A DNA stretch of 64,000 nt from Leptospiraceae bacterium (GTDB lineage Bacteria > Spirochaetota > Leptospiria > Leptospirales > Leptonemataceae). Position 1 is the stretch's first letter; every line of letters starts with the position of its first letter. Positions 61,453 to 63,926 of the stretch are shown piece after piece. The notes beneath the pieces are model-generated. The model saw only the letters and a list, made by a program, of their open reading frames with translations, was not told the DNA's origin and did no database searches. The position numbers and the translations under genes are program-made. The stretch covers positions 1 to 64,000 of the forward strand of contig JAOACE010000001.1 in the NCBI GenBank assembly GCA_026418015.1, written 5' to 3'.

Positions 61453-63279
61453 TTAGGATGATTTAGGATTTTTTGTTTTTTCTTGGATTCTTTTAGTGCG
61501 AATTTCTTCTAAAATATATTGAACAAAATTTTCGATGTTCCATTCCTTTTGTTCACCTGTAAAATAATTTCGCACATTGATTTTTCGCGCAGATTTTTCT
61601 TTTTCTCCAATTACTAGCATATAAGGAATCTTCATTTTTTCTGCGTTTCGAATGCGTTTTGCTAATGTTTCTTCGATTTCGATATGAACCCTCAATTTAT
61701 GTTTTTTAAAAATATCTTGTAGTTCTAAACAATAATCTAAAAATACTTCGCTTACAGGCAAAATACGAATTTGTTCCGGAGCTAACCAGGTAGGAAATGC
61801 TCCAGCAAAATGTTCAATCAAAAACCCTACAAACCGTTCATGAGTTCCCAAGGGACTCCTATGAATACATACAGGTCTTTTAAACGAACCATCTTTATCG
61901 ACATATTTTAAATCGAACTTTTCTGGCATAAATAAATCTAATTGACATGTACTTGCTGTAAAGACCTTGCCAATAGAACTCTTAATCTGAAAGTCAACCT
62001 TAGGTCCATAGAATGCTGCACCATCATGTTCTACTACATAATCCACACCAGAAATTTCCATTGCTTTACGTGTTAATGCTTCTGCCTTTTGCCACATTTC
62101 TTCGTTGCCATGGTATTTGGTGTTTTTTGGGTTTCGCAGTGCTAATTCCATCCAATAATCTTTTATGCCTAATATGTTGTAATAATATTTATGGAGCTCG
62201 ATTACGCGAACAAATTCTTCGACAGCTTGTTCTTCTGTACAGTAAATATGAGCATCATTCATGGTCATAGATCGAACACGCATTAAACCAAACAAAGCAC
62301 CAGAATCTTCGTACCGATGGCATATACCATATTCTGCAAGTCTTAAAGGTAATTCTCGGTAACTTCTTGGTCTCATTGCAAAAATGGTATGATGAAAAGG
62401 ACAATTCATCGGTTTGATATAATATCTTTCGCCATCATCTAATTCCATCGGAGGAAACATATATTCTTTATAATGAGGTAGATGTTCACTCGTATAAAAA
62501 AGTTCTTCTTTTGTTATGATAGGTGTTGTAACACGTTGATAACCCCATTCTTCTTCGGTTTCTTTTGCCCATTTTTCCAACTCATCTTTGATAATATAAC
62601 CCCTTGGAAGCCAAATGATTAAACCTGGTCCAATCTTTTCGGAAGTTGTATAGATTTCTAATTCTTGTCCTAATTTTCTATGATCTCGTCTTTTTGCTTC
62701 TTCGAGCATCTTTTCGTAGTTATCGAGCTCCTCTTGTGTGTCGAAAAGGAGTCCATAAATCCTCTGTAATTGGGGTCCATTTTTATCGCCTTTCCAGTAT
62801 GCTCCCGAAACAGAAATTAGCTTAAATGCTCCAATTTCTCCTGTATGGTTTACATGAGGACCATTACACATATCGATGAAAACTTCTTGCTTTCCATCTG
62901 GGGTAATGTTTTTATAAAAAGATAGTTCTTTTTCTCCCTGATTTTTTAGTTCGAGAGCCATTTCTACTTTAAAATCTTCTCCTAGTGATTTTAGATATTC
63001 AATGGCTTCGTCAATTGGCATGTAGAAACGAACAAATTTTTGTCTTTGTTTTACGATATGTTTCATTCTTTTTTCTAATTCTTTGAGTTCTTCTTCTTTT
63101 AATGGTGGATCTACTTGAACATCATAAAAAAAACCATTTTCTGTATCTGGTCCAATGGCTAATTTAACATTATTACGTATTTGTTTTAATGCCTGAGCCA
63201 AAACATGAGCAGCACTATGCCTTTTAGTGGATACAGGAATTCGTTCTTTTCCTGTTCTTTCTTGTAATTCTTGTTTCAT
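61453..63279 (-). CDS. thrS: Threonyl-tRNA synthetase without TGS domain
   Basis: 608 residues. It lacks the roughly 60-residue N-terminal TGS domain and starts almost directly with the editing domain (HSAAHVLAQAL, DMCNGPHVNHTGE). The catalytic core has motif 2 'RLAEYGICHRYEDSGALFGL' and the zinc cysteine in MNCPFHH; the anticodon-binding domain ends the protein. AGGAG precedes the ATG. A TATAAT on the minus strand at 63315-63320 is a possible -10. No T-box-like leader is seen. Confidence 0.96.
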   Translation of the reverse strand: MKQELQERTGKERIPVSTKRHSAAHVLAQALKQIRNNVKLAIGPDTENGFFYDVQVDPPLKEEELKELEKRMKHIVKQRQKFVRFYMPIDEAIEYLKSLGEDFKVEMALELKNQGEKELSFYKNITPDGKQEVFIDMCNGPHVNHTGEIGAFKLISVSGAYWKGDKNGPQLQRIYGLLFDTQEELDNYEKMLEEAKRRDHRKLGQELEIYTTSEKIGPGLIIWLPRGYIIKDELEKWAKETEEEWGYQRVTTPIITKEELFYTSEHLPHYKEYMFPPMELDDGERYYIKPMNCPFHHTIFAMRPRSYRELPLRLAEYGICHRYEDSGALFGLMRVRSMTMNDAHIYCTEEQAVEEFVRVIELHKYYYNILGIKDYWMELALRNPKNTKYHGNEEMWQKAEALTRKAMEISGVDYVVEHDGAAFYGPKVDFQIKSSIGKVFTASTCQLDLFMPEKFDLKYVDKDGSFKRPVCIHRSPLGTHERFVGFLIEHFAGAFPTWLAPEQIRILPVSEVFLDYCLELQDIFKKHKLRVHIEIEETLAKRIRNAEKMKIPYMLVIGEKEKSARKINVRNYFTGEQKEWNIENFVQYILEEIRTKRIQEKTKNPKSS

Positions 63280-63710
63280 TATTGGACTCCTGTTAAACTA
63301 TTTATACAGAAATAATTATACGAAAAAAATATCAATATCGATAATTTTTTTTGATTTTTGTTTGTAAATGGAATTTTAAATTTTATTCTAAAAGCATAGC
63401 ATTTTGAATACTCAAAAAAGAAAGTTCTAATAATGATTATTTTTAATCACTTTAATTATTAATTCACTAATTTTGTTTATTTTTCTATTTTATAATTGCT
63501 TAATTTAAATCATTTTTTATATATTTATGATTAATTATAATCATATATTTTGATTTAATATGATTATTTTTATTCATATTTTATTTATAGTTCATATATT
63601 GCTTATTTTTGTTTATTTTATTTAATATTTTGATTTATTTTAATCACTTTAAATTTATAAAACAACAATCATTTTTGGTATTTCTTGAGAAAATTAATAG
63701 AAGGATGAGC
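63280..63710. other. 431-bp non-coding region, about 90% A+T
   Basis: The only stretch above 300 bases without a gene. It holds the thrS leader and possible -10 near 63315, then from 63434 the dyad array described separately. No credible reading frame or structured RNA is seen. Confidence 0.8.
63434..63646. repeat. Array of seven degenerate 16-bp dyads at about 30-39 bp spacing
   Basis: Copies begin at 63434, 63464, 63497, 63528, 63561, 63600 and 63631 (steps 30, 33, 31, 33, 39, 31). The best are TGATTATTTTTAATCA, TGATTAATTATAATCA, TGATTATTTTTATTCA and TGATTTATTTTAATCA; TGCTTAATTTAAATCA, TGCTTATTTTTGTTTA and TCACTAATTTTGTTTA are weaker. General form TGATTA-N4-TAATCA. The first and last copies are both followed by CTTTAA. 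Fifteen to seventeen AT bases separate most copies. Function unknown. Confidence 0.65.
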
Positions 63711-63926
63711 TTATATTTCGTATTTATTTTTTACTGTACATTTTGGGCAAACGATAAAGACTTCTCCCTTTACCCTGGTTCCAGTAGGTGTTTTAATTTT
63801 CCCCGTAGCAACAAACTCAAAATCTAATCCTTCCGGAACATAATGTCCTGGACCATACCTTGCTGTTCCCTTCATTTCGTATCCACAGGCATGACATTTC
63901 ACCTTTAGTCGAATGACTTCTGCCAT
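63711..63926 (-). CDS. Small zinc-ribbon protein
   Basis: 71 residues with CHAC (Cys11, Cys14) and CPKC (Cys60, Cys63) enclosing a beta-rich middle, 'GPGHYVPEGLDFEFVATGKI'. A single zinc ribbon of the kind seen in small RNA- or protein-binding factors; no closer family recognised. TTGACA lies 34 nt before the ATG with no ribosome site. Its 3' end abuts the dyad array. Confidence 0.72.
   Translation of the reverse strand: MAEVIRLKVKCHACGYEMKGTARYGPGHYVPEGLDFEFVATGKIKTPTGTRVKGEVFIVCPKCTVKNKYEI

Follow-up and report, generated by a model that had tools for sequence, protein, structure and literature searches.

A dyad array between thrS and a Zn-ribbon gene as a putative control-site cluster of a chromosome-II-type replicon in the Leptospira class

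The window, a 64,000-nucleotide stretch from the draft genome of a Leptospiraceae bacterium, carries thrS and a small Zn-ribbon gene on the same strand, separated by an AT-rich non-coding gap that holds an array of 16-bp dyads (Table 1). This gap is the longest in the window, where open reading frames cover about 96.5% of the sequence, as the initial annotation had observed. The stretch belongs to an 89,675-bp contig, C3, which continues with PhIP, mgtE, p12, a Fis/NtrC-like gene, parA, parB and rep; the Fis/NtrC-like gene, parA, parB and rep lie 5-9 kb from the window.

Table 1. Features of the thrS–Zn-ribbon gap and of the neighbouring block (window positions unless a contig or locus is named)
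Feature	Position	Strand	Description	Basis or remark
thrS, threonyl-tRNA synthetase	61453..63279	-		only full-length copy found in the genome
Non-coding gap holding the array	63280..63710		431 bp, 84% AT, between thrS and the Zn-ribbon gene	ORF list, sequence, gap ranking
Dyad 1, TGATTATTTTTAATCA	63434..63449		0 mismatches to TGATTA-N4-TAATCA	17-19 bits with a PWM from other genera only
Copy 2 of the initial annotation, TCACTAATTTTGTTTA	63464..63479		5 mismatches	indistinguishable from chance
Dyad 3, TGCTTAATTTAAATCA	63497..63512		2 mismatches to TGATTA-N4-TAATCA, 1 to the family consensus TGMYTA-N4-TARKCA	TGCTTA half-site
Dyad 4, TGATTAATTATAATCA	63528..63543		0 mismatches to TGATTA-N4-TAATCA	
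Dyad 5, TGATTATTTTTATTCA	63561..63576		1 mismatch to TGATTA-N4-TAATCA	
Copy 6 of the initial annotation, TGCTTATTTTTGTTTA	63600..63615		4 mismatches	indistinguishable from chance
Dyad 7, TGATTTATTTTAATCA	63631..63646		1 mismatch to TGATTA-N4-TAATCA	
Zn-ribbon protein gene	63711..63926	-	71 aa, CxxC...CxxC	no Pfam family; block member with orthologues on L. interrogans chromosome II and T. parva pTURPA.01
Fis/NtrC-like gene	C3:68054-69304 of the window's genome			just past the window
TGTCGGAYRTCCGACA copies	G000:C3:69353-69368, 70188-70203 (L075 14353, 15188)			before parA
TGTCGGAYRTCCGACA further copies	L122 23016, 23199; L123 7305, 7421, 7460			before parA

The array had been described as seven copies of TGATTA-N4-TAATCA, three of them decayed, and dyads are present where these copies were placed. 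Four lie within one mismatch of the pattern and a fifth, at 63497, proves to be a good variant by the family consensus, whereas the copies at 63464 and 63600 stand at chance level. Only 0.024 dyads at one mismatch or fewer are expected in the gap and 0 of 3000 dinucleotide shuffles reach four, so the four good dyads are not a product of gap composition; they make up all but one of the five such sites in the window. The genome-wide scan that had been proposed, with one mismatch allowed, finds 24 sites against 6 for the reversed pattern, and no equal density elsewhere. Tandem Repeats Finder independently reports a 33-bp period array at 63433-63589, whose score of 104 is the highest in the window. 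Under a position weight matrix (PWM) trained on other genera only, two of the window's copies are the top sites of their 20-kb region.

The spacing of the dyads is less regular than had been proposed. With the five real dyads at offsets of 0, 63, 94, 127 and 197, a 31.5-bp lattice fits the first four, and the last is about 2.5 bp out of phase. Pairs 29-34 bp apart are modestly over-represented across the genus, but a Rayleigh test over the genus detects no significant 10.5-bp periodicity (p about 0.08-0.13; p values at 10.5 bp range from 0.08 to 0.58). The data favour selection acting on the sites, and strict helical phasing only weakly.

Comparison within the genus, another check that had been suggested, finds dyads in the same gap of three other members. 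The order Zn-ribbon, thrS, rubrerythrin is common to many relatives, and in these three the gap at thrS measures 140 to 849 bp and has no obvious similarity to that of the window beyond the dyads. At one mismatch or fewer, G001 holds one dyad there, G002 five and G003 three, each far above shuffled sequence. Among the TGATTA-N4-TAATCA sites listed genome-wide, the thrS gap contains the densest group in G002, in G003 and in the window's genome. Because the dyads are kept in three relatives despite diverged flanks, the sites appear to be under selection while the surrounding sequence turns over. A strict two-dyad pattern run over the relatives gave no match, since adjacent array copies carry mismatches.

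The neighbouring genes identify the setting of the array. The nearest relatives of the block's ParB are encoded on Leptospira interrogans chromosome II and Turneriella parva pTURPA.01, which database records list as separate second replicons. The order Fis-like gene, parA, parB, rep, discoidin-domain gene is the same on both, and the arrangement of parA-parB-rep relative to the Fis-like and p12 genes is conserved. This ParB affinity and gene order assign the array to a block that maintains a chromosome-II-type replicon, known here from a draft contig. L. interrogans also has dyads in an AT-rich gap 3' of its Zn-ribbon gene, where the neighbour is an acyltransferase gene, not thrS. The chromosomal ParB is separate and encoded on another contig, and classical parS-like sites occur nearby in five of the seven loci checked. 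If the replicon is a separate molecule, the only full-length thrS found would make it indispensable and chromid-like.

Two other block proteins can be described. The p12 protein (L075 12084-13061 and orthologues, alignment A3) has 282-344 aa and neither a Pfam family nor a PDB profile match; about 30 blocks conserve its gene beside that of the Fis-like protein or beside parA. A short block-conserved protein (L075 9347-9712; G000:C3:64347-64712) matches NCBIfam NF047546, the Leptospira phosphatidylinositol phospholipase family, at 115.5 bits, below the cut-off of 184.

Across the class, the motif is found almost only beside second-chromosome replication and partition genes. The combined genera give the 16-bp consensus TGMYTA-WWWW-TARKCA, and its exact form, TGMYTAWWWWTARKCA, occurs 34 times in 44 genomes outside the genus. 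By reading of the listed positions, 30 of these sites lie near Fis-like, Zn-ribbon or parS-like sites on the same contig, the exceptions being three in G021 and one in G043. Five genomes in which the block was not found (G030, G034, G036, G042 and G045) have no exact consensus match, and the sole exact match in the 4.4 Mb of T. parva falls on the 25-kb plasmid. Block sequence outside the genus holds 78 sites at one mismatch or fewer, against a mean of 3.7 over 359 half-site permutations, none of which reaches 78. The motif also recurs in genomes of about 50% GC, at one locus genome-wide.

Within the block, the sites are unevenly distributed among the genes. They were counted by PWM scoring in the zone from -90 to +10 of each gene start; because some training sites of the matrix came from these blocks, absolute scores are biased toward them, while the gene-to-gene comparison is unaffected. 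A site lies at the start of the Fis-like gene in 7 of 27 genomes, of rep in 6 of 28 and of the Zn-ribbon gene in 2 of 30. No site was seen at 171 starts of parA, parB, p12, PhIP, discoidin, metF and thrS (thrS alone, 0 of 13), and the window's own genus has no dyad at the Fis-like start.

The rep coding sequence is strongly enriched, with 23 sites in 22.8 kb (1.0 site/kb) against 8 in about 221 kb (about 0.04/kb) of other block genes. One rep-internal group, near +540 to +760, keeps the dyad where the amino acids differ; matches at the LTGFKQ and LLKFSD codons are explained by protein conservation and were not taken as evidence. Sites at or inside rep, as expected of initiator iterons, occur in part of the genomes, and T. 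parva, G005 and G041 have no rep-internal sites. Further clusters, the window array among them, are found next to the Zn-ribbon gene or at a distance of 1.6-3 kb past p12, and six of the seven T. parva sites fall within coding sequence, mostly unrelated. Of the roles first considered for the array, that of a replication-type element has the strongest support: the motif is confined to the parAB-rep block and recurs at the start of rep and inside it.

On balance, these observations make it probable that the array is a control-site cluster belonging to the replication/partition block of a secondary replicon, one of chromosome-II type in the Leptospira class, with its dyads bound by a block-encoded protein, most likely of Fis/NtrC type. 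Each dyad would be occupied by a dimer of this protein, an enhancer-binding relative with a Fis-type helix-turn-helix (HTH) and no GAFTGA loop. In many relatives it would bind at its own start and at that of rep and damp both genes. At distal clusters, where neighbouring dyads are often about three helical turns apart, several dimers would bind cooperatively and titrate or loop the regulator, like the inc-type sites of plasmids; an effect on replicon copy control is the predicted outcome.

The choice of binder draws on co-occurrence in two genomes. G002 has lost this ParB genome-wide and has no TGTCGGAYRTCCGACA palindrome; of parA it keeps a remnant alone, lying between its discoidin and Fis-like genes. 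No rep was found on the 416-kb block contig, where the position expected from synteny is vacant, or in 1.6 Mb of the 2.4-Mb genome. The array itself is intact in G002, as are the Fis-like gene and p12. G028 keeps p12, parA, parB and the parS-like palindrome and lacks the Fis-like gene, rep and any dyad. Among the block proteins examined, the Fis-like protein alone fits both genomes, which makes it the most likely binder. Two side observations concern G002: the parA remnant occupies L077 5170-6348 (G002:C3, about 127.2-128.3 kb), and the block contig ends (L268) in 23S rRNA. The block may be fused there with the main chromosome, possibly a natural second-chromosome fusion.

The domain make-up of the Fis-like protein agrees with DNA binding at such sites. 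Against PDB profiles its AAA+ core matches ZraR/NtrC and its HTH matches Fis, the HTH being also Pfam HTH_8, so that the block itself encodes a Fis-type HTH protein, and the HTH sequence ISRGSLQYKL is nearly invariant. GAFTGA is absent from the protein in alignment A2, where ELFGEDPGERF and similar sequences take its place, and in the window's genus the AAA+ nucleotide-binding motifs are eroded too. Since the GAFTGA loop is missing, the protein should not activate sigma-54, and a sigma-54 enhancer array, which would need an activator with that loop, is not supported. A more specific and tentative idea, which we think less likely to be right than wrong, is that a relative of sigma-54 activators lost its activator loop and, across the whole Leptospira class, came to serve the second chromosome as a dedicated replication/copy-number control protein. 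Its private dyads would lie at its own gene, at rep and within it, and in distal phased arrays like that of the window.

Several findings weigh against the Fis-like protein as binder. With both rep and the Fis-like gene missing, G028 cannot separate the two; the rep-internal sites suit an initiator better than a regulator; several genomes (G007, G015 and G018) have an intact Fis-like gene and no strong dyad; the window's genus shows no dyad at the Fis-like start; the search for rep in G002 covered 1.6 of 2.4 Mb; helical phasing is not significant overall; and the position of most T. parva sites inside unrelated coding sequence is not explained by a simple operator.

The main rival assigns the dyads to Rep, an HTH_36 protein resembling phage O, which would bind them as iteron-like sites in and before its own gene and thereby open or control an origin; distal arrays would then serve as inc-type titration or handcuffing sites. 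The rep-internal sites make this a serious rival: they are partly conserved as DNA rather than as protein and resemble the origin within an O-type gene. The sites at the rep start, the AT-richness of the arrays and the resemblance of Rep to replication initiators also agree with it. Even so, we consider it rather unlikely, given that the G002 array is intact where no rep was found on the block contig or in the part of the genome covered, and that the Fis-like start bears sites as often as the rep start does.

Plain transcriptional operators, through which a regulator would act on thrS, the Zn-ribbon gene and their neighbours with no replicon function, are distinctly unlikely. The array does lie 155-370 bp upstream of thrS in the window's genome, a site occurs at the Zn-ribbon start in two genomes, and the G002 array outlasts the loss of the par and rep genes. 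The motif nevertheless tracks the block and not thrS: dyads occur on L. interrogans chromosome II and on the T. parva plasmid, where the block contains no thrS, the thrS starts scored are devoid of sites, and the T. parva sites lie in coding sequence. The operator controlling thrS that the initial annotation had listed is thereby disfavoured, and thrS is probably a neighbour of the array, not the reason for it. An Rfam scan of the window matched only a tRNA, and a riboswitch or leader RNA was set aside together with the thrS operator.

A partition role, also among the early candidates, has a better claimant in another palindrome. TGTCGGAYRTCCGACA was found de novo before parA in L. interrogans and T. 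parva and recurs at one mismatch or fewer in 38 of the 48 class genomes, where its usual place is the interval separating the Fis-like gene from parA; it is the likely candidate parS of the second-replicon ParB. The dyads share several features with such sites, being 16-bp palindromes with TG..CA termini that cluster close to the parAB genes of a secondary replicon. However, in most of the 38 genomes holding it the palindrome before parA is TGTCGGAYRTCCGACA, and the dyads do not accompany the ParB: G002 keeps them without this ParB or an intact parA, and G028 has the ParB and TGTCGGAYRTCCGACA with no dyads. A role of the dyads as parS for the linked ParB is accordingly very improbable, and this candidate was rejected.

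A low-complexity coincidence or a mobile repeat family is scarcely credible, for all the 84% AT of the gap and its weak copies, in view of the shuffles, the column-permuted controls, the recurrence at about 50% GC and the confinement to a single locus, which also answer the early caveat about low complexity; equal motif counts elsewhere in the genomes were looked for and not found, and a dispersed repeat or mobile element was dropped because the motif is not dispersed.

The closest parallels are iteron and inc arrays, as known from plasmids and, in the form of RctB 12-mers and 39-mers, from Vibrio cholerae chromosome II (PMC6090056). There, as here, replicon-specific repeats accompany the initiator gene, lie in AT-rich sequence and form distal regulatory clusters beside parABS. 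Unlike those iterons, the present site is a 16-bp dyad rather than a directional repeat and contains no Dam site; the distal array lies about 9 kb from rep and persists in G002, where rep was not found in the 1.6 of 2.4 Mb covered. NtrC-family enhancer arrays, together with Caulobacter NtrC as an NtrC-type protein devoid of GAFTGA (PMC10274813), offer a second parallel, sharing a Fis-type HTH, an AAA+ core, a frequent dyad spacing of about three helical turns and loss of the sigma-54 contact loop. In contrast to that NtrC, the gene discussed here lies in a parAB-rep block, its likely targets are replicon genes, and its AAA+ nucleotide-binding motifs are eroded in the genus. ParB-parS centromeres resemble the dyads in their 16-bp palindromes near parAB with TG..CA ends, but the parS of the second replicon is better assigned to TGTCGGAYRTCCGACA, from which the dyads are separate.

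Leptospira chromosome II and T. parva pTURPA.01 are the nearest relatives of the locus, sharing the order Fis-like gene, parA, parB, rep, discoidin and having the Zn-ribbon and p12 genes on the same replicon. No published description of dyad sites at these loci was found in the open-access literature searched. A 2026 survey of large extrachromosomal replicons, Leptospira included, states that lineage-specific coordination mechanisms beyond V. cholerae and A. tumefaciens are still to be identified (PMC13342612). For the timing and control of second-chromosome replication in Leptospira, the dyads, the parS-like palindrome apart from them and the Fis-like protein linked to them offer concrete, conserved candidates.

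Two further observations concern replication genes and replicon number. The DnaA of the genus (L106, G000:C17:149257-149613; L102, L105) has a very divergent AAA+ domain, with E about 1e-15 to 1e-17 compared with 1e-59 in T. parva, and keeps a C-terminal NDHTGILYA-like signature. Finally, on each of the contigs G040:C22 and G040:C102 a Zn-ribbon gene is accompanied by two TGTCGGATATCCGACA sites and one dyad, and G040 may harbour two such replicons.
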